A DNA stretch of 64,000 bases, taken from an uncultured Pelagibacteraceae bacterium (GTDB taxonomy: Bacteria > Pseudomonadota > Alphaproteobacteria > Pelagibacterales > Pelagibacteraceae). The stretch is taken from contig CACKXA010000003.1 in assembly GCA_902604055.1 (NCBI GenBank), forward strand, positions 1 through 64,000, in the 5' to 3' direction. Both the position numbers and the translations under genes were made by a program. The notes beneath the pieces were generated by a model. The model ran no database searches. It was not told the origin of the DNA and was given only the letters and a program-made list of their open reading frames with translations. Shown in pieces: positions 35,029-45,789 of the stretch (positions within the stretch are counted from its first letter, which is position 1; the number at the start of each line of letters is the position of its first letter).

Positions 35029-36075
35029 TTATCTTGCTGGTGGTACGTAAAGTATTCCACCTTTTGTCCATAATTCATTTGGACCTCTGTTTGGTAAAAT
35101 ATTTGTGTCAGCTATATGTTTTTTGTAGCTTTCACCATAGTTACCAACTTGCTCGATAATTCTTAAGCTCCACTCATTATCAAGACCGAAAGCAGCGCCT
35201 AGTTCACCTTCAGAACCAACTAATCTCTTAATAGCTGGGTTGTCTGAGTCTTTTAAGCCTGAAGCGTTTGATGAGTTAACACCATATTCTTCTGCTTCGA
35301 TCATTGTGTTTAGAGACCATCTTACAATATCTTCCCACACTGAATCCCCTTGTCTTACAACAGGTCCTAGTGGTTCTTTAGAGATTGTTTCTGGTAATAC
35401 TTTATGATCATCTGGAGCACTTAGCTTAGTTCTTTGAGCAGCTAATCCGGATTTATCAGTTGTATAAGTATCACATCTTCCAGCATCATAAGCTTGAACA
35501 ACTTCGTCTGCTTTTTCAAACGCAATTGGTTCATACTTAATGTTTTTAGAATTAAAGAAGTCTCTCATGTTTAGCTCTGTAGTAGTACCTGTGTTTGTAC
35601 AAGCAGATATGCCATCCTTGAAATCATTCACTGAATTAATTCCAGAATTTTTTCTAACCATGAAACCTTGACCATCGTAAAAGTTAACACCAACAAATGT
35701 TAAACCAATGTCAGCATCTCTAGATAATGTCCAAGTTGTGTTACGTGCTAGTACATCGATTTCACCAGACGTTAAAGCAGTGAATCTTTCTTTAGCACTT
35801 AAAGGAGTATATTTCACTTTGTCAGCATCACCTAAAACGGCAGCTGCAACAGCTCTACATACATCAACATCTATACCAGTCCAATTTCCAGACTCATCAG
35901 CATTTGAGAATCCAGGAAGTCCTTGTGAAACTCCACATTTCACAAAACCAGCTTTTTTAGTGTTGTCTAAAGTTTTAGATTTTTTTGATCCAGATCCTCC
36001 ACCGCCTTGGCCACATGCCACAAGCAAAGAAGAAGCAAGAACAACTAAAATCCAAGTTTTAATTGATTTCATCAT
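35029..36075 (-). CDS. aapJ: General amino-acid ABC transporter, periplasmic binding protein
   Basis: VKCGVSQGLPGFSNADESGNWTGIDVDVCRAVAAAVLGDADKVKY, RNTTWTLSRD, ISKEPLGPVVRQGD. Confidence 0.95.
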   Translation of the reverse strand: MMKSIKTWILVVLASSLLVACGQGGGGSGSKKSKTLDNTKKAGFVKCGVSQGLPGFSNADESGNWTGIDVDVCRAVAAAVLGDADKVKYTPLSAKERFTALTSGEIDVLARNTTWTLSRDADIGLTFVGVNFYDGQGFMVRKNSGINSVNDFKDGISACTNTGTTTELNMRDFFNSKNIKYEPIAFEKADEVVQAYDAGRCDTYTTDKSGLAAQRTKLSAPDDHKVLPETISKEPLGPVVRQGDSVWEDIVRWSLNTMIEAEEYGVNSSNASGLKDSDNPAIKRLVGSEGELGAAFGLDNEWSLRIIEQVGNYGESYKKHIADTNILPNRGPNELWTKGGILYVPPAR

Positions 36076-36102
36076 AATTTATGATTTCCTCTCTTTTTAT
36101 CT

Positions 36103-36116
36103 TATTGTTAACAATA
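36103..36116. promoter_or_regulatory. Candidate palindromic operator upstream of aapJ
   Basis: Perfect 14-bp palindrome TATTGTTAACAATA, 28 bp before the aapJ start; a second imperfect palindrome TTGAAA-ATAAA-TTTCAA at 36120..36136. Confidence 0.35.
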
Positions 36117-36260
36117 TTTTTGAAAATAAATTTCAAAACAATTTATTATGGATTAAACCCTCTTGGTAATCAATATGAGTTAAATTCACACTGAGACTTG
36201 GATGGACACCATATGTAGCAGTATCTTTTTTAATACGGATATATATACAAAAAAACAACC

Positions 36261-37304
36261 TTATAAAATTTTTGTTGCCGGGGAAGTAAGTTCAAATATT
36301 CTGCTCGATGTTCTTTTAAATGACTCGATTAGCCTTTTTGAGGATCCAATTTTATCAAGGGATTTTTCCATAGAAACCATTAAGTAAATTTTTTTTTCAT
36401 ATAGAATATCAATTAAAGTAATAAATCTTTGTTGTTGATTTGAGTTTTCCTCAGAAAAGAAAGGGATATTTTCTATTACAATAAATTTACAAATACTTGA
36501 AATTTTAATGTAATCTTCAGATCCCAGGTTTTCATCACATAGTTGTTTAAAATCAAACTTCGCAATACCATCATAAAATTCTTTTATAATCAAATCTCTA
36601 CCTTTTATATTAATTGTTGTTTCTTTTTTTATTGAATTTTTAGTCAACTCTCTAAAAAATTGATTGATTTTAAAAGTATTTTTTTCATTTATTGGTGAAA
36701 AAGCTCTTTGTAATTTATCTGAACCGACTTTTCTATAATCTTCATCGATGATTAATTCTTTTTGTATTGAATTTTTTTTAATTATTGAAATAAATGGTAA
36801 AAATTGTTCTCTTTGCAAACCTTCTTTGTATAAATTATCAATCTTTATATTTGTTGATATTAATATTTTAATATTTTCTGAGAAAATTGTTTGAAATAGT
36901 TTTCCTAAAATCATTGCATCTACAATATTAGTTACTTGCAATTCATCTAAATAGATTAATTTATTTCTTTTTAGTTTTTGAACGAATGAGTTTATCGAAT
37001 TAGATTTATTTGTATGTCTAAAATCATGAAAATTAATCATAAACTTGTTAAAATGAAACCTTTGTTTTGGGATATCTATATAATCGAAATAGTGATTTAA
37101 AATCATTGTTTTACCAAGACCCACTCCTCCATGCAGGTAGAAGCATAATTTTTCATTTGGGTTTGAAAAAAAATTAAAAATTTTATTTTTTGGCTTTATA
37201 AAGTCCTCTAATAAATTAATTATCTCGATTTGATTGTTGTTTTTTTCAAATTTATTTTTTTCACAATGTTTGATGAAAGAGTCTTTTAGCGAACCTTTAT
37301 TCAT
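36261..37304 (-). CDS. zapE: Cell division protein ZapE / AFG1-like ATPase
   Basis: CFYLHGGVGLGKTMILNHYFD, RFHFNKFMINFHD, LIYLDELQVTNIVDAMILGKLF. Confidence 0.93.
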   Translation of the reverse strand: MNKGSLKDSFIKHCEKNKFEKNNNQIEIINLLEDFIKPKNKIFNFFSNPNEKLCFYLHGGVGLGKTMILNHYFDYIDIPKQRFHFNKFMINFHDFRHTNKSNSINSFVQKLKRNKLIYLDELQVTNIVDAMILGKLFQTIFSENIKILISTNIKIDNLYKEGLQREQFLPFISIIKKNSIQKELIIDEDYRKVGSDKLQRAFSPINEKNTFKINQFFRELTKNSIKKETTINIKGRDLIIKEFYDGIAKFDFKQLCDENLGSEDYIKISSICKFIVIENIPFFSEENSNQQQRFITLIDILYEKKIYLMVSMEKSLDKIGSSKRLIESFKRTSSRIFELTSPATKIL

Positions 37305-37317
37305 TTATTTTAGAATT

Positions 37318-37394
37318 TGGCGCGCCCTGAAGGATTCGAACCTACGACCCTCGGTTTAGAAAACCGATGCTCTATCCAACTGAGCTAAGGGCGC
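37318..37394 (-). tRNA. tRNA-Arg(TCT)
   Basis: Acceptor GCGCCCT/AGGGCGC, anticodon loop TTTCTAA, T-loop GGTTCGAATCC, encoded CCA. Confidence 0.94.
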
Positions 37395-37418
37395 AATTAA
37401 ATTATTATGTATATTTAC

Positions 37419-38477
37419 TTAAAAACACACTAAATGGTCAATATAAATCGGTTTTTTTATACCAAATTTTTCTTTTATCTCGTGGTAATGTCCGTGATGT
37501 GAATCTACTGAAATTGGTATTAAATCATCATTTTTTGTTTTAACTAAATAGATAAATTCAGTGCCCCTAAATTTTCTGTCTATAACTTCCAGTTTTAAAT
37601 CACTTTTATCATCATGTTTTAAATCGTCTGGTTGTAAAAGTAGTTTTACGATTGTTCCTCTCTTAAATTTATTAACTAAATTACCTTTAATTTGGCCTAA
37701 ATCTGAATTTTCTAATGTTTCATCGTCAATAATCTTCGCTTTAATCAAAACACCTCTATTTAAAAAATTAACAATTTTAATAGATTTAGGATAATGATAA
37801 ATATTATAAGGTGAATTATACTGTTCTAGTTTTTGATCTAAAATTATCCCACATTTATCACCCATATAAAAAGCTTCATATGAGTCATGTGTAACCATAA
37901 TTGTAGTAATACTTAATCTTTTAAGAAGTTTTTTTATATTAGATTGTAGTTCTCCTTTTAAACTAAAGTCTATGTTAGAAAATGGCTCGTCGACTAAAAG
38001 TAAATCAGGTTTTGATATTAAAGATCTGGCTAAAGATACTCTTTGTGCTTCTCCCGCACTTATCTGATGAGGAAATTTATTTTGTAAATTATTTAAGTGT
38101 AAAATATCTATTAATTCATCTGCTGCAAGTTCATATTTTGATTGTGATTTTCTTTTAGATCCAAAATTAATATTATCAATTACGTTATAATGAGGGAAAA
38201 GGCTGTTATCTTGAAAAGATAGGGCAATATTTCTTTTTTCAGGTTCTATATGTACAGATTGGGAAGATATTAATTTTCCATTTAAAAAAATTTCACCTTC
38301 TGCAAGTTTTTGTAAGCCTGCTATAGATCTTAAAATAGTAGTTTTTCCAACACCTGATGGGCCAAGTAAACAAACTATTTCTCCTGGTTTATCAATTTTC
38401 AAATTGAAATTAATTACTTTATTTTGCTTACTGGCAAGAAAAGTAGAATTTTTTATTTCAAAAAAGCAATTAGACAT
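37419..38477 (-). CDS. fbpC: Iron(III) ABC transporter, ATP-binding protein
   Basis: LLGPSGVGKTTILRSIAGLQ, ISAGEAQRVSLARSL, LLVDEPFSNID; next to Fbp-type permease. Confidence 0.88.
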   Translation of the reverse strand: MSNCFFEIKNSTFLASKQNKVINFNLKIDKPGEIVCLLGPSGVGKTTILRSIAGLQKLAEGEIFLNGKLISSQSVHIEPEKRNIALSFQDNSLFPHYNVIDNINFGSKRKSQSKYELAADELIDILHLNNLQNKFPHQISAGEAQRVSLARSLISKPDLLLVDEPFSNIDFSLKGELQSNIKKLLKRLSITTIMVTHDSYEAFYMGDKCGIILDQKLEQYNSPYNIYHYPKSIKIVNFLNRGVLIKAKIIDDETLENSDLGQIKGNLVNKFKRGTIVKLLLQPDDLKHDDKSDLKLEVIDRKFRGTEFIYLVKTKNDDLIPISVDSHHGHYHEIKEKFGIKKPIYIDHLVCF

Positions 38478-38492
38478 AAAAATAATATAATC

Positions 38493-40106
38493 TTATTTTT
38501 CAGAAAGTATATATTTTGAAGTAATAAATATCATCAAACTAGCCCAAAATATTAAAAATAGTGACGGCAAAGCAGCGGCCTCTAAGAGATCTTGGGATGC
38601 GTATGCGTAGGCTTTTGTCGCGAATGTTTCAAAATTAAAAGGTCTTAAAATTAAAGTAATAGGTAATTCCTTTATTATTTCTATTGAAATTAAAACTCCA
38701 ATTAAAAAAATACTATTTTTTAAATAAGGAAAATGAATTTTTCTAAAGGTTTTAAATTTTGAAAATCCCAACAAGTACGAACTTTCATCGATTGACGTAT
38801 TTATTTTCAAATAAGTTGACTTTATTCCGTTAAAAGCAAGTGAATAAAATCTTATAAAATAAGCAACTATTAAACCAAAAACTGATCCTATAAAAATACC
38901 TTTCATGCCAACAAGTCCAAATGAAGAACTAACAAAATCACTCAGCCATGAAAAAAAGGTAATAAAAGCAACAGCAAGTATTACGCCTGGCAAAGCGTAT
39001 CCGGAAATGGAAAAAAAACTCAAATAATCTAGAACTTTACTTTTAGAGACTCTATTTCCAAAGTTAATAAAAAAAGAAATAGATATCAAAAAGATACTTG
39101 CTAATATAACTAATAGTAAAGTATTCAAATTTAGAGCAAGAATATCTACGTCTTGTAAATATTTTGGAAACTTTATTGTCCAGTATAACATTTGAATTGT
39201 TGGAAATAAGAAACTTAAAATAAATAAAATTGTACAAAAAGCAGTTATAAAAAAACCAATTTTCCTATTTAATTTAATTTTTGGAATAGGTTTAAATCCT
39301 TGAGTATTATGATGATATTTTGCTTCACCTCTTGATATATTTTCAATAAAAAAAATTATAAAAATGATTAATAACAAAAAAAAGGACAGTTGATTGGCTG
39401 TATTTAAATCATCAAAAGCGAGCCAAGAATTATATATACCAGTGGTCAAAGTCTGAACGCTAAAAAAAGAAACTGTTCCAAAATCTGCTAGACATTCCAT
39501 AGCCACCAAAGCTAATCCTGCAACAATAGCTGGTCTTGCTGAAGGCAATACAATTTTAAAAAAACTTTCTCTAGCAGAGAGTCCTAAGTTTTTACTAACC
39601 TCAATTAAATTATTGGATTGATGATAAAAAGATGCTCTTGTTAAAACATATACATAACCGAATAGAGAAAATGACATTGATAAAATTGCTCCTAACATTC
39701 CGTCGAATTTGGGAATTTTTGTATTATAATTCCCTTCCCCAAAAAGATTCGTTAATATAGAAAATAAAGTACCAAAATTTTCAAAAAAAGCGGTTAATGA
39801 ATATGCATATATATAAGCTGGTACTGCAAATGATAAAATTAAAGCCCATTTAAAAAAATTAACGCCCGGAAAGTCATAAAAAGAAACAAAGTAAGCTGAA
39901 AATACCCCAAAAATAAATGTTAAAATCAACACACCTAATAAGATTATCAATGATTGGTTTATATAAGAATATAAGAAGGTGTTTTTTAATAAATCAAAAT
40001 AACCACTTGTAGTACCAAAAAAACTTATAAATACTGTTAAAATTGGTAGCGCTACTAATAAGGAAATTAGTAGAGATGTTAAAAACCAAAAATTTACCTT
40101 ATTCAT
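38493..40106 (-). CDS. fbpB: Iron(III) ABC transporter, fused permease
   Basis: 537 aa, two permease halves; ASFYHQSNNLIEVSKNLGLSARESFFKIVLPSARPAIVAG. Confidence 0.9.
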   Translation of the reverse strand: MNKVNFWFLTSLLISLLVALPILTVFISFFGTTSGYFDLLKNTFLYSYINQSLIILLGVLILTFIFGVFSAYFVSFYDFPGVNFFKWALILSFAVPAYIYAYSLTAFFENFGTLFSILTNLFGEGNYNTKIPKFDGMLGAILSMSFSLFGYVYVLTRASFYHQSNNLIEVSKNLGLSARESFFKIVLPSARPAIVAGLALVAMECLADFGTVSFFSVQTLTTGIYNSWLAFDDLNTANQLSFFLLLIIFIIFFIENISRGEAKYHHNTQGFKPIPKIKLNRKIGFFITAFCTILFILSFLFPTIQMLYWTIKFPKYLQDVDILALNLNTLLLVILASIFLISISFFINFGNRVSKSKVLDYLSFFSISGYALPGVILAVAFITFFSWLSDFVSSSFGLVGMKGIFIGSVFGLIVAYFIRFYSLAFNGIKSTYLKINTSIDESSYLLGFSKFKTFRKIHFPYLKNSIFLIGVLISIEIIKELPITLILRPFNFETFATKAYAYASQDLLEAAALPSLFLIFWASLMIFITSKYILSEK

Positions 40107-40153
40107 ACAAAGATCTTTAAGTTAATTATAACATTAAAAAAGATCAATATCTT

Positions 40154-40324
40154 TTAATTTTTGCTAAAAATTGACGAAACAATATTTTTAATCTCTTTTG
40201 TCTTGATTTTTGAAATGTCTCTATTAGAAATTTTTTGTTCCATAATTTTAGCTTGATTAATACAAGGCGAACACCCAGTCTTTAACTTGTTTAAATTTAT
40301 CTCTTTTTTAGATATTCGCCTCAT
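40154..40324 (-). CDS. Uncharacterised 56-aa CxxC small protein (not in supplied ORF track)
   Basis: Hand translation: MRRISKKEINLNKLKTGCSPCINQAKIMEQKISNRDISKIKTKEIKNIVSSIFSKN; 17 nt after the fbpA stop, 47 nt before the fbpB start, same strand. Confidence 0.6.
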   Translation of the reverse strand: MRRISKKEINLNKLKTGCSPCINQAKIMEQKISNRDISKIKTKEIKNIVSSIFSKN

Positions 40325-40341
40325 ATAATTAACAAACTACT

Positions 40342-41358
40342 CTATTTCCAACCTGCATTTGTCATTACTTCTAATGCATCTGCTTGTCTTTTCCCGTAAT
40401 TAACAACTTTTGTTTTTAGATCCTGTTTAAAATCTAATCCCATGTTAACTACTAGAGGATGCGGAGAAATTCCTGCTATCATTGGATATTCAAAAGTATT
40501 ATTTACTATGTGATTTTGAGCTTCACCACTTAGTAAAAATTCAACCAATTTGATTGCATTTGCTTTATTAGGAGCTCCTTTAACTAAACCTGCGCCACTA
40601 ATGTTCATATGCGTTCCTCTTCCATCTTGATTAGGAAAAAATGGTTTCACTTTTTTAGCAGCAGCTTGTTGTTCTGGCCCTTTATTACCAGACAACATTA
40701 ACGCTAAGTAATATGTATTAGCTACAGCAATATCTGCTTCTCCGGCTGCTACCGCAAGTATTTGAGCTCTGTCGTTGCCTTTTGGAGCTCTAGCCATATT
40801 TGAAACCATCCCTTTTGACCACTCAGCAACTTTACCTTTTCCATTATTTTTGATTAATGAAGCTACAAGTGATTGGTTGTAAATATTATTTGAAGCTCTT
40901 ATTACTAATCTACCTTTCCATTTTGGATCAGCTAAACTTTCATAAGTTAAACCAGCCAGCTCTGCGCCGCTAACTCTTTCAGGAGCAAAATAAACTATTC
41001 GTGCTCTTTTGGCTATTCCAACCCATTTTGATGTTCTAAAATTACTTGGAACTGCTGATTTAATATAATCGCTAGTAAGTCCGCCTTGTAGATTTGATGC
41101 GAATGCACCTAACCTTCCAGCATCTGCGGTTATATATAAGTCTGCTAGACTGTCAGCGCCTTCCTCTATAATTCTTTTTTCTAAAGCACCTGTTTTTCCA
41201 GATATAACATTTACTTTAATTCCAGTTTTAGCTGTAAATTTTTCATAAAGTTGAACATCTGAATCGTAATGTCTTGCGCTAAATATGTTTACTTCATTCG
41301 CAAGAGCACTTGCTGTAAACATAAGTATTGAAAACACTGCTATTATTGATTTTTTCAT
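40342..41358 (-). CDS. fbpA: Iron(III) ABC transporter, substrate-binding protein (start corrected)
   Basis: Signal peptide MKKSIIAVFSILMFTASALA; EVNIFSARHYDSDVQLYEKFTAKTGIKVNVISGKTGALEKRI; tracked start 41430 would translate through the Fur-box region. Confidence 0.93.
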   Translation of the reverse strand: MKKSIIAVFSILMFTASALANEVNIFSARHYDSDVQLYEKFTAKTGIKVNVISGKTGALEKRIIEEGADSLADLYITADAGRLGAFASNLQGGLTSDYIKSAVPSNFRTSKWVGIAKRARIVYFAPERVSGAELAGLTYESLADPKWKGRLVIRASNNIYNQSLVASLIKNNGKGKVAEWSKGMVSNMARAPKGNDRAQILAVAAGEADIAVANTYYLALMLSGNKGPEQQAAAKKVKPFFPNQDGRGTHMNISGAGLVKGAPNKANAIKLVEFLLSGEAQNHIVNNTFEYPMIAGISPHPLVVNMGLDFKQDLKTKVVNYGKRQADALEVMTNAGWK

Positions 41359-41375
41359 ATTTTCCCTTTTTTTAA

Positions 41376-41390
41376 TAATGATTATCATTA
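41376..41390. promoter_or_regulatory. Fur box upstream of fbpA
   Basis: Perfect 7-1-7 palindrome TAATGAT-T-ATCATTA sharing the core of the classical GATAATGATAATCATTATC consensus. Confidence 0.75.
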
Positions 41391-41406
41391 ACAGGTAAAT
41401 TATGAT

Positions 41407-41425
41407 AATGATAGTAGTTATCATT
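41407..41425. promoter_or_regulatory. Second Fur-like box upstream of fbpA
   Basis: Inverted repeat AATGATA-GTAGT-TATCATT. Confidence 0.6.
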
Positions 41426-41492
41426 TGCAATAATGACGCACTCTTTACTAGAAGGCTGTTGATAAGTAAAGGTAAATAAGGTTTAAGTAATT

Positions 41493-41708
41493 ATGCTTCA
41501 GATCAATCCAAAAAAATTTAAACACATTCAAAATAAAACAATACCATCCCCTCTGAGGCCAAAATTTAGAAATAGCAAAGAAACTAATATTTATTTCTTG
41601 TCAAAACGTAAATACGACAAGAAAAAAAGGGATAAACTATTTGGAAGATTAAAACTGTTTGCTTCTCTGATAGTTTTAGGTGTTGGCGGATATTATTTAT
41701 CAAATTAA
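41493..41708 (+). CDS. Hypothetical small protein with C-terminal TM segment
   Basis: 71-aa ORF; basic N-terminus, C-terminal LFASLIVLGVGGYYLSN; divergent from fbpA. Confidence 0.5.
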   Translation: MLQINPKKFKHIQNKTIPSPLRPKFRNSKETNIYFLSKRKYDKKKRDKLFGRLKLFASLIVLGVGGYYLSN

Positions 41709-42481
41709 ATTATTTTGGCCTTAACAGAGCCAAGTATTTCAATTTTACCGGTGTATAAACCTTTTGCTAAAATAGGAACTACACCAACGGTAGATCCAGT
41801 AAAAACGTAAAATTTTTTATTAAGCAATATCTTATCCTTTTTGATCTTATTTAAAACAAAACATAAAGAATTAATTGGACTAATGTAGACTGTATTTGTG
41901 TTGCCATTTACTAATTGATTAGCCTTTGGATTTGAGATTTGAGTCTTTAAATTATTTATCTTAATATTTTTAAATTTTTTTTTATGACCAATAACAAATT
42001 TAACATTACCGCCAAAATCAGAACATAGGTCACCAAGATATTTTATGCCAGCTTTTTTTTGTCTATAACCAACAACTTCAATACAAGGTGCCATATGCGT
42101 TATAAATTTTTTAACGTTTTTCTTTGTTATTTTTTTTTTAAAATTAAAAAAATCTTTTTTAATCAAATAACAAACTTCTAACTCGATACCAAGAGTGTAT
42201 TTATTTATTTTAATTGAGCTTTTGTTTTTTAAAAAATTATTTTTATAAATAGATGAAAAAAAGGGTTCCTTTTCTTTTAATTTTTTTAAGACAGGGAAAG
42301 CTGTTCCTCCAGCCTTAAAGCCTATAGTAGGTATCTTTATTTTACTTTCACAAACTTTTCTTAACTCGTTGGCGTTAAACATATTTTTTGTATAACGCGT
42401 TGAAATTGACTTGATTAATTTCCCTTTAAGGAAAGCGTTTACCAAACTATCAGAAACAATATTTATATTTTTTTTAATCAT
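41705..42481 (-). CDS. 2-keto-4-pentenoate hydratase-like (FAH superfamily) protein
   Basis: IPTIGFKAGG, LGIELEVCYLI, APCIEVVGYR, LGDLCSDFGGNVKFVIG, FTGSTVGVVPI. Confidence 0.75.
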   Translation of the reverse strand: MIKKNINIVSDSLVNAFLKGKLIKSISTRYTKNMFNANELRKVCESKIKIPTIGFKAGGTAFPVLKKLKEKEPFFSSIYKNNFLKNKSSIKINKYTLGIELEVCYLIKKDFFNFKKKITKKNVKKFITHMAPCIEVVGYRQKKAGIKYLGDLCSDFGGNVKFVIGHKKKFKNIKINNLKTQISNPKANQLVNGNTNTVYISPINSLCFVLNKIKKDKILLNKKFYVFTGSTVGVVPILAKGLYTGKIEILGSVKAKII

Positions 42482-42545
42482 TATTAATGTTATAACATAA
42501 ATACTTTTTTTATTGAAAAAAAAGCATAAATATTTAAGGATTAAA

Positions 42546-42602
42546 ATGGAAGTAATATTAGCAGTACTTTTTGCTCTTTGGCTTGTTGGAATTACTGAAT
42601 AA
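42546..42602 (+). CDS. Candidate 18-aa hydrophobic microprotein (not in ORF track)
   Basis: MEVILAVLFALWLVGITE preceded by AAGGATTAAA; stop overlaps next start as TAATG. Confidence 0.4.
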   Translation: MEVILAVLFALWLVGITE

Positions 42603-42766
42603 TGGATCGCAGTTATAGTATTGATGAAATATTGGTGGCTGTAAACGATTTACAAAAAAATAAATCTATCGAAACGGTTGAAACTAAAATTAAAAAAACA
42701 AATAATTCTAATATTCCTATTAATACTCTAAAATTAATTGAAGAAGCTGAAAAAGCTAAAAATTAA
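42602..42766 (+). CDS. Candidate 54-aa small protein (not in ORF track)
   Basis: MDRSYSIDEILVAVNDLQKNKSIETVETKIKKTNNSNIPINTLKLIEEAEKAKN; TAATG overlap with upstream microORF; ends against the convergent gap stop. Confidence 0.5.
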   Translation: MDRSYSIDEILVAVNDLQKNKSIETVETKIKKTNNSNIPINTLKLIEEAEKAKN

Positions 42767-43767
42767 ATTAAAGCAGCAATTTGTATTGCTGTGTCGCACA
42801 TTCTATTCGAAAATCCCCATTCATTATCATACCATGAAAGTACTCTACTGAATTTTCCTTTAACAACTTGTGTTTGCGTAGCATCGAAAATTGAACTGTG
42901 AGGATTGTGATTAAAATCTTTTGATACTAAAGGTTTTTCATTTATATCTAAAATACCTTTTAACTCTCCTTTAGATGCTTGATTCATTGCATCATTAATA
43001 CTTTCAGAAGTTACTTCTTTTTCTGTTACTAGTGTCAAATCTATTAATGAAACGTTTGGAGTTGGAACTCTAATTGCAGTTCCATCTAGTTTCCCTTTTA
43101 AACTCGGTAAAACTAAGCTCATAGCTTTTGCTGCTCCCGTAGACGTTGGTATCATAGAACCTTCTGTCTGCCTCGCTCGTCTTAAATCTTTATGTAATGT
43201 ATCTAAGAGTTTTTGATCACCTGTGTAACTATGAATTGTTGTCATGTATCCATAGGTTATGCCAAATGTTTTTTCTAAAACCATAGCTACTGGTGCTAAG
43301 CAGTTTGTGGTACATGATCCATTGGAAATAACATTATGATTTTTTTTCAATTCTTTACTATTTACGCCCTGTACTAATGTAAAATCAACCTCTTTTGCTG
43401 GAGCAGAAATTATTACTTTTTTAGCTCCGGCTTGAATGTGTTTACCTGCCGAAGTTTTATCTAAAAAAAAACCAGTACACTCTAAAACAACATCAACTCC
43501 AATTTTCCCCCATGGTAACTTAGCTGGATCTCTCTCAGCAAAAACTTTTATATTTTGATCGCCAATTTTAAAACCATCGCTTGTCGATTGCACATTTTGG
43601 TTTAATACACCATGAGTACTATCATACTTAATTAGATGAGCGTTAGTTTCTATAGAACCTAAGTCGTTAATTCCTGCTACTTGAATTTTACCCTTATAGT
43701 TTTCTAATAAAGCCCTTAAAATTAAACGCCCTATTCTTCCGAAACCATTAATTCCTACTTTAACCAT
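42763..43767 (-). CDS. gap: Glyceraldehyde-3-phosphate dehydrogenase
   Basis: GINGFGRIGRLILRAL, ISNGSCTTNCLAPV, SWYDNEWGFSNRM. Confidence 0.97.
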   Translation of the reverse strand: MVKVGINGFGRIGRLILRALLENYKGKIQVAGINDLGSIETNAHLIKYDSTHGVLNQNVQSTSDGFKIGDQNIKVFAERDPAKLPWGKIGVDVVLECTGFFLDKTSAGKHIQAGAKKVIISAPAKEVDFTLVQGVNSKELKKNHNVISNGSCTTNCLAPVAMVLEKTFGITYGYMTTIHSYTGDQKLLDTLHKDLRRARQTEGSMIPTSTGAAKAMSLVLPSLKGKLDGTAIRVPTPNVSLIDLTLVTEKEVTSESINDAMNQASKGELKGILDINEKPLVSKDFNHNPHSSIFDATQTQVVKGKFSRVLSWYDNEWGFSNRMCDTAIQIAALI

Positions 43768-43772
43768 ATGTG

Positions 43773-44126
43773 TTATACGTATTTAAATACAACAATAAAA
43801 TAAGCAACACAAATTATTGATGCTATCCACAAGAGACTGCCAACTAAACCTAACCATGCCAAGTGAATAAAGGCACTGCCTAGCAAAGAAACAAATAATC
43901 TATCGCCCCTAGTTGTATCTAAACCTAAAATACCTTTTCTTGGTGATCCTCCAGGTACTTTTTTCTCCCAAATAAGCATCACCGTTATACATAATGCAAT
44001 AAAAATGAAGAAAGCTGCTGTTTGCCAAGTCCAAGCCATCCATGAAAATAAGTCAAAATCGAAAAGACCTTTTTCTTTTGCTTTACCAACTTCGCCCCAT
44101 GTAGCAGCATATAAATTTGTAAACAT
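43773..44126 (-). CDS. glpU: DUF2160 family small membrane protein of glycerol ABC transporter
   Basis: WMAWTWQTAAFFIFIALCITVMLIWEKKVPGGSPRKGILGLDTTRGDRLFVSLLGSAFIHLAWLG; last gene of the transporter operon. Confidence 0.82.
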   Translation of the reverse strand: MFTNLYAATWGEVGKAKEKGLFDFDLFSWMAWTWQTAAFFIFIALCITVMLIWEKKVPGGSPRKGILGLDTTRGDRLFVSLLGSAFIHLAWLGLVGSLLWIASIICVAYFIVVFKYV

Positions 44127-44926
44127 TATACCCTTCCCATCGCAAATCCTTTGGCAATATAATTTCTTACGAAATAAATTACAACTGCTCCAGGAATAAT
44201 AGTTAAACTTCCAGCTGCAGCTAATAAACCTAGTTCATAACCGGATGTACTTGACGTTCTTGTCATTATAGCTGCAATAGGTTTAGCTATAGTTGCAGTA
44301 AGTGTTTTTGCAAGTAACAATTCAACCCAAGAAAACATAAAACAAAAGAACATTGTAATACCTATGCCTGCAGCTATTGTTGGAATAAATATCTTAAAGA
44401 AAAATCTTCCAAAAGAGTATCCGTCTACATAAGCAGTTTCATCTAATTCTTTAGGAACAGCTGACATAAATCCTTCTAAAATCCAGACAGCAAGAGGAAT
44501 GTTAAAGAGGCAATGTGATAACGCTATAGCTATGTGCGTGTCAAATAAATTTACAGAAGAATAAAATTGAAAAAATGGTAAAGCAAATACAGCTGGTGGT
44601 GCCATTCTATTTGTTAATAACCAAAAGAATAGATGTTTATCTCCTAAGAATTTATATCTAGAAAAAGCATATGCAGCAGGTAAAGCTGCAGATACTGAAA
44701 TTATAGTATTAAAAACTGTATAAGTAATAGAATTCACATAACCCATATACCAGGTGCTATCAGTAAAAATTGTAACATAGTTTTCTAAAGTAAAATCTTT
44801 AGGCCATAGTGAGTAAACGTTAATAATTTCTGTAGTTGTTTTAAATGACATATTTAAAAGCCAATAGATTGGAAGCATCAAAAATATTATATATAAAGTA
44901 GGTACTAACCATTTAATTTTACTCAT
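44126..44926 (-). CDS. glpQ: Glycerol ABC transporter, permease
   Basis: MalG-type permease, LDETAYVDGYSFGRFFFKIFIPTIAAGIG; operon context. Confidence 0.88.
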   Translation of the reverse strand: MSKIKWLVPTLYIIFLMLPIYWLLNMSFKTTTEIINVYSLWPKDFTLENYVTIFTDSTWYMGYVNSITYTVFNTIISVSAALPAAYAFSRYKFLGDKHLFFWLLTNRMAPPAVFALPFFQFYSSVNLFDTHIAIALSHCLFNIPLAVWILEGFMSAVPKELDETAYVDGYSFGRFFFKIFIPTIAAGIGITMFFCFMFSWVELLLAKTLTATIAKPIAAIMTRTSSTSGYELGLLAAAGSLTIIPGAVVIYFVRNYIAKGFAMGRV

Positions 44927-45789
44927 GCTCTACCCTCATCTTTCATCATTATTGTGTAAAAAATCCAACATATTAAAAGTACAATTAAGAAATATATAAG
45001 AGACATTGCGGCAGCAGGACCTAAGTCGAACTGACCTAAGGCCATCTTAACTAAATCAAGAGATAAAAAGTTTGTAGCATTTCCAGGTCCACCACCAGTT
45101 AAAACGAAGGGTTCTGTGTAAATCATAAAACTATCCATAAATCTTAAAAGAATGGCTAACGTTAAAACTTTTTTCATCTTTGGAAGCTCAATGTATCTAA
45201 AAATATCCCATCTGCTTGCTCCGTCTATTTCTGCAGCTTGGTAATAAGCAGGTTGAATTGAATTTAAACCCGCGTAGGATAATAAAACTACTAAAGATGT
45301 CCAATGCCAAACATCCATTAAAATTGTTGTAAACCATGCGTCACCACTTTGTTGAGTAAAGTTATAATCAAAACCAATTGAATTTAAAGAATTACCAAGA
45401 AAACCAATATCTGGTAACGCAAATATATTCCACATTGCGCCCACTACATTCCACGGTATTAGTAACGGCATCGACATTAAGATTAGACATACTGGAACTC
45501 CCCATCCTTTTTTGGGCATGGTTAAAGCAATACCTATACCTAATGGCAGTTGAATTAGAAGAATTATAAAAGTAAATATAACTTGTCTTCCTAAAGATGC
45601 ATGAAATCTTTCAGAATGTAAAATTTCTTTGAACCATCTAGTCCCCTCCCAGGCAAAAACATTGCTTCCAAAAGTTTCTTGAAAGGAATAATTAACAACC
45701 GTCATTAACGGAACTGCAGCATTAAAAGCTACAAGAACGAATACTGGGATAACAAAGAACCATGCTTTCTGATTTAATGTTTTATTCAT
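44923..45789 (-). CDS. glpP: Glycerol ABC transporter, permease
   Basis: MalF-type permease, YYQAAEIDGASRWDIFRYIELPKMKKVL; operon context. Confidence 0.88.
   Translation of the reverse strand: MNKTLNQKAWFFVIPVFVLVAFNAAVPLMTVVNYSFQETFGSNVFAWEGTRWFKEILHSERFHASLGRQVIFTFIILLIQLPLGIGIALTMPKKGWGVPVCLILMSMPLLIPWNVVGAMWNIFALPDIGFLGNSLNSIGFDYNFTQQSGDAWFTTILMDVWHWTSLVVLLSYAGLNSIQPAYYQAAEIDGASRWDIFRYIELPKMKKVLTLAILLRFMDSFMIYTEPFVLTGGGPGNATNFLSLDLVKMALGQFDLGPAAAMSLIYFLIVLLICWIFYTIMMKDEGRA

Follow-up and report, generated by a model that had tools for sequence, protein, structure and literature searches.

The fbp Operon and Its Additional Reading Frame

SAR11 bacteria are the most abundant heterotrophs of the ocean, where iron is often growth-limiting. 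To our knowledge, the intracellular reduction of the Fe(III) delivered by FbpABC importers is poorly defined, and standard FbpABC/SfuABC operons are not known to encode anything between their binding protein and permease. The window, a 64,000-nucleotide stretch of DNA from an uncultured Pelagibacteraceae bacterium, carries an fbp operon in which fbpA and fbpB are separated by a 235-nt gap that harbors a short open reading frame (ORF) with a CxxC motif. Is this ORF a gene, and what could its product contribute to iron import? The features of the region are listed below.

37419..38477, minus strand: fbpC, ATPase, 352 aa (Pfam ABC_tran)
38493..40106, minus strand: fbpB, permease, 537 aa (Pfam BPD_transp_1)
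40107..40153, minus strand: spacer between the microprotein gene and fbpB, with a weak hairpin (z −2.1); many relatives have a strong covarying hairpin here
40154..40324, minus strand: CxxC microprotein gene, 56 aa, stop codon included in the coordinates (ORF list, homologues, frame test, census)
40262..40273, minus strand: codons of the invariant C18-S-P-C21 motif, which the AlphaFold2 (AF2) model places at the N-terminal end of helix 1
40342..41358, minus strand: fbpA (sfuC-type), periplasmic Fe(III)-binding protein, 338 aa (Pfam SBP_bac_6), the conserved upstream neighbor
41377..41389, no strand assigned: Fur-box-like operator AATGATTATCATT, exact match about 20 nt upstream of fbpA

The genes for the binding protein, the permease, and the ATPase occur in the order of an FbpABC ferric importer. 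In 52 of 60 relatives, the 130 nt that precede fbpA contain an exact 13-mer, AATGATNATCATT, while the best match in shuffled sequence has 3 mismatches; these matches suggest a putative Fur-like operator. In P. ubique HTCC1062, the sfuC, sfuB, and sfuA transcripts increase 16-, 10-, and 5-fold, respectively, under iron limitation (PMC2864753). The microprotein transcript would be expected to follow the sfu genes under such conditions; HTCC1062 itself seems to be without the gene. On the opposite side of fbpA, a divergent 71-aa ORF (41493-41708, plus strand) encodes a basic protein with one C-terminal hydrophobic segment and no Pfam match.

Conservation and Selection

The initial annotation had placed a 56-aa CxxC ORF in the gap, on the operon strand, and its coordinates, strand, and sequence all proved correct. 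The ORF begins with ATG 17 nt past the fbpA stop codon, and C18 and C21 are the sole cysteines of its product. Because 49 ORFs of at least 30 aa overlap positions 36000-45000, the length of the ORF alone is not significant; it is conservation that sets it apart from chance.

A scan of the genome collection yielded 60 loci with microprotein homologues, all from Pelagibacteraceae. The 64 distinct orthologues of the window's genus form a near-gapless alignment in which CSPC is kept in every sequence, along with N10, N12, S33, K46, I48, S51, and F53. The CxxC pair, singled out from the window alone, is thus the conserved core of the family. Among the homologues, variability is highest at codon position 3, the median pairwise dN/dS is ~0.18, and the pooled pN/pS is 0.28 in frame, compared with 1.21 and 1.90 for the two alternative frames. 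These substitution patterns indicate that purifying selection acts on the amino-acid sequence. The ORF at 40154-40324 is a genuine gene under selection, and the operon order fbpA-orf-fbpB-fbpC, which had been offered as a possibility, is supported.

Distribution and Loss

Of the 169 genomes surveyed in the window's genus, 121 carry fbpA and 95 of these also the microprotein, a count that takes in relics and one fusion; in all 95, the microprotein gene immediately follows fbpA and shares its strand. The expectation that orthologous gaps would be free of stops and frameshifts and would retain the CxxC holds for most loci, but 26 of the 121 fbpA-bearing genomes are without the gene. Frameshifted or deleted relics occur at five loci (L058-L061 and L169), and several fbpA-fbpB gaps of 14-65 nt represent clean losses or short remnants.

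An order-wide profile search found the microprotein in 179 of 297 genomes, mostly of a second genus (g7). Most genomes of that genus have the orthologue in the same fbpA-fbpB slot, and in the loci read it usually starts 0-7 nt past the fbpA stop codon. It was found neither in the sister-family loci that were read nor elsewhere outside the Pelagibacteraceae in a sample of the class. Outside the window's genus, CxxC is present in 52 of the 52 orthologues read and C-x2-C-x3-C in 48. The third cysteine follows the pair in the second genus (CSPCxxEC) and is placed differently in group 2 (LNTCKKGCKTC); C18 and C21 are the only cysteines invariant across all groups. Profile–profile comparison joins the window's group to the second genus (probability 98.8%, E 1.4e-16) and group 2 to the second genus (probability 93%, E 3.5e-7); judged by these profiles, the three groups are homologous.

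The model strain apparently lacks the gene. In one genome (G086), fbpA starts at 1181971, adjoining position 1181972, where the sfuC-SAR11_1239 intergenic region of HTCC1062 begins (1181972-1182071; PMC2704228). These abutting coordinates make it very probable that G086 is HTCC1062. Between fbpA and fbpB, this genome has a 77-nt gap with a hairpin and no microprotein. Since the gene is often lost while fbpA is kept, and since HTCC1062 appears to do without it, the microprotein is not essential for transport. Given its apparent absence from HTCC1062, the gene would have escaped the standard iron-limitation study. No paper on the gene was found in the literature; the misannotated-region list in the supplement of Meyer 2009 (PMC2704228) may mention it.

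Predicted Structure

The AF2 model, built with 56 homologues, consists of two helices (residues 19-33 and 42-53; mean pLDDT 78), the first of which starts at the CxxC. Foldseek returned no PDB match for this model, and searches of Pfam and of family and fold libraries gave no significant match to the sequence; the family is without a name in the libraries searched. PHROGs likewise gave no significant match, and a phage origin was discarded since the phage records gave no match. The sequence shows neither an apparent signal peptide nor an apparent transmembrane segment, which makes a cytosolic location probable.

A Hairpin 3′ of the Gene

Roughly two of every three loci read in the window's genus have, after the microprotein gene, a hairpin of 62-79 nt with an invariant UUUGACGUCAA leader. 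An alignment of 30 sequences predicts 18 base pairs, 5 of which show double compensatory changes. The element is defined as follows.

L018:3175-3245 and 29 other loci: structured RNA hairpin immediately 3′ of the microprotein gene; its TTTGACGTCAA leader is invariant

A model search of 51 genomes located one copy of the hairpin in each of nine genomes, and every copy coincided with the fbp locus. In relatives, this covarying hairpin was thus found only at the fbp operon, to which it appears to be specific. A permissive Rfam scan of three hairpin-carrying loci assigned no family to the element, and the window is without the conserved form.

Redox Genes in the fbpA-fbpB Slot

In several loci of the window's genus, the gap extends to ~700 nt and contains the microprotein, the hairpin, and a flavodoxin of ~150 aa before fbpB. 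The flavodoxin gene adjoins the microprotein in L122-L129 and others, whereas it stands alone in the slot in L121 (g5). The flavodoxins of neighbors and fusion belong to Pfam Flavodoxin_1 (E 1.6e-25) with Foldseek matches to 1ykg and 5veg; their closest NCBIfam models are of the CysJ/MioC type and score below equivalog cut-offs.

In one locus (L102, genome G026), the two are joined: the last 50 residues of a 198-aa flavodoxin hold the CxxC domain. This fusion was seen once in 169 genus genomes, at the level of the assembly rather than of reads. Standalone proteins of 54-55 aa in the fbpA-fbpB slot elsewhere are ~60% identical to the fused domain, and one of them is 38% identical to the window ORF; together with the 93% profile probability given above, these intermediates mark the fused domain as a homologue of the microprotein. 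In the model of the fusion, the flavodoxin fold is confident, while the C-terminal part forms two helices from the CxxC onward at low confidence because the alignment covered the flavodoxin part alone. At two loci (L134 and L190), the sequence just 5′ of a group 2 microprotein weakly resembles a flavodoxin tail with a stop codon, a pattern that might weakly hint at a standalone form derived from a fusion.

Most microprotein loci have no adjoining flavodoxin, a search with the fusion flavodoxin at E 1e-8 found nothing in the window genome, and co-occurrence of microprotein and flavodoxin shows no excess over the microprotein background rate. Related flavodoxins of the second genus (L130-L133) were rejected as part of the system because they lie at another locus; there they adjoin a COQ7-like gene and, in some cases, an MsrB-like gene.

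The slot also houses a Redoxin/AhpC-TSA (peroxiredoxin-like) gene in two distant lineages. In L163, a 977-nt gap contains this gene and the microprotein, and in L178 (family f2), a 710-nt gap contains it and no microprotein. With both flavodoxin and peroxiredoxin-like genes found there, the slot has repeatedly gained redox genes. The flavodoxin neighbors and fusion, the family-wide occurrence, the third cysteine elsewhere, and the frequent losses all extend what had been read from the window.

Proposed Function and Alternatives

The family is an unnamed, genuine small-protein family tied to SAR11 iron uptake, with a function that we infer. The initial annotation had suggested a possible iron-handling or transporter accessory role, and an iron or redox accessory role would fit the genomic context. 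We hypothesize that the microprotein is small, cytosolic, and accessory to FbpABC, the ferric-iron importer of Pelagibacteraceae. Its function would reside in the cysteine thiolates with which an α-helix begins, a pair here and a triad in many orthologues. The protein would serve as a carrier of electrons or of Fe/Fe-S and would probably be oligomeric in the two-cysteine lineages. It would receive electrons from the flavodoxin where one is present and assist in reducing or holding the Fe(III) that the transporter brings in. The preferred reading, in which a two-helix thiolate protein of the cytosol serves FbpABC-delivered Fe(III) by electron transfer or by binding iron or an Fe-S cluster, with flavodoxin as its partner, is advanced tentatively and at somewhat short of an even chance.

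The redox link is suggested by the fusion and the neighbors. We infer the cytosolic location, the two-helix fold, the metal or redox chemistry, and iron as the substrate, as well as the flavodoxin partnership where the genes merely adjoin or the flavodoxin is not at the locus. As flavodoxin mostly does not adjoin and shows no excess co-occurrence, another electron donor would be needed at most loci. Two cysteines per chain cannot alone complete a cluster, which counts against the proposal. A more ambitious version, in which the proteins constitute a new SAR11-specific family of mini Fe-S or iron-thiolate redox proteins and work with flavodoxin as a dedicated module for intracellular ferric reduction encoded within the FbpABC operon, is doubtful. 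Nonetheless, a cysteine protein tied solely to FbpABC and found fused to a flavodoxin provides a concrete candidate for the iron reduction step.

A purely metal-binding role can be envisaged, that of an iron metallochaperone or buffer whose cysteines, in a dimer or as a triad, take up Fe(II) or a different metal from the importer and hand it over. The position in an iron importer operon is consistent with this, and the third cysteine, present in the second genus and at another position in group 2, suggests metal ligation over a plain disulfide pair. The window's own group is without that cysteine, however, and the flavodoxin fusion and neighbors, as well as the peroxiredoxin-like gene in the slot, point to electron transfer; a chaperone with no redox role is considered unlikely.

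The placement of the gene between binding protein and permease could also reflect a small regulatory or assembly subunit that binds FbpB or FbpC, in which the CxxC would sense oxidation or metal and thereby gate transport. The product is basic, helical, and small, and in group 2 the stop codon of the gene lies directly against the start of fbpB. Such a subunit would leave the flavodoxin fusion unexplained, and many fbpA loci are without the gene; this role is likewise considered unlikely.

Protection against Fenton chemistry during iron import by a thiol-disulfide protein (thioredoxin- or glutaredoxin-like, e.g., a peroxiredoxin reductant) has a slim chance. Weak matches to TIGR00412 in 33 of 56 members (best E 8.6e-4) and the Redoxin-family genes in L163 and L178 speak for it, but the TIGR00412 score is far below the cut-off (16.9 versus 62 bits), the AF2 model has no strands, and L178 lacks the microprotein.

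Finally, it is very improbable that the ORF serves chiefly to adjust fbpB expression, as a leader or spacer whose translated peptide is incidental: although it is short, lies between two differently expressed genes, and is followed by hairpins in many loci, its amino-acid sequence is under strong selection with invariant cysteines, its domain is kept in the fusion, and pairing of the coding sequence with the fbpB start region did not covary. Translational coupling by pairing of TTCCGC in the coding sequence with GGCGGA at fbpB was dropped because the former persists where the latter is gone (L239, L247, and L248).

Comparison with Known Systems

Bacterioferritin-associated ferredoxins (Bfd/Fer2_BFD, PF04324) share with the microprotein a small size, an iron context, and a C-x2-C followed by a helix, as in the C-terminal half of Bfd. 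However, the C-x-C pair is absent, and the four-cysteine pattern C-x-C-x(about 32)-C-x2-C does not occur, as C18 and C21 alone are invariant. A Bfd half-domain was also rejected, the profile comparison being insignificant (hhalign probability 1.9%) with no Pfam match, in agreement with the initial statement that the protein is not a standard four-cysteine Bfd.

A local resemblance (IDLNK..GC..C...C) links the family to [4Fe-4S] electron-transfer subunits of the EbdB/HybA type, and the extra cysteines of group 2 and the second genus fall near ferredoxin ligand positions I and IV, which may serve as a lead. The scores are insignificant, however (PDB E 0.34; NCBIfam 0.02), and loop insertions before the CxxC break the spacing in several members. 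Assignment as a ferredoxin fails on the absence of C-x2-C-x2-C-x3-C, as there are two cysteines in the window's group and three in others, and no Fer4 Pfam match was obtained.

Thioredoxin-like proteins of the MTH895/ArsE type (TIGR00412) share the GCxxC at a helix N-terminus. The microprotein scores below the family cut-off, and no thioredoxin fold is predicted: instead of an α/β fold with CxxC and cis-Pro, as in thioredoxins and glutaredoxins, the model has two helices and no strand.

The fusion protein recalls flavodoxin-ferredoxin fusions of the EFR1 (NF038196) type in combining a flavodoxin with a C-terminal cysteine-containing domain. In contrast to EFR1, this domain has two cysteines and no Fer4 motif, and only the flavodoxin part matches, weakly. 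Apart from the microprotein, the operon of the window is a standard member of the FbpABC/SfuABC ferric-iron ABC importers.
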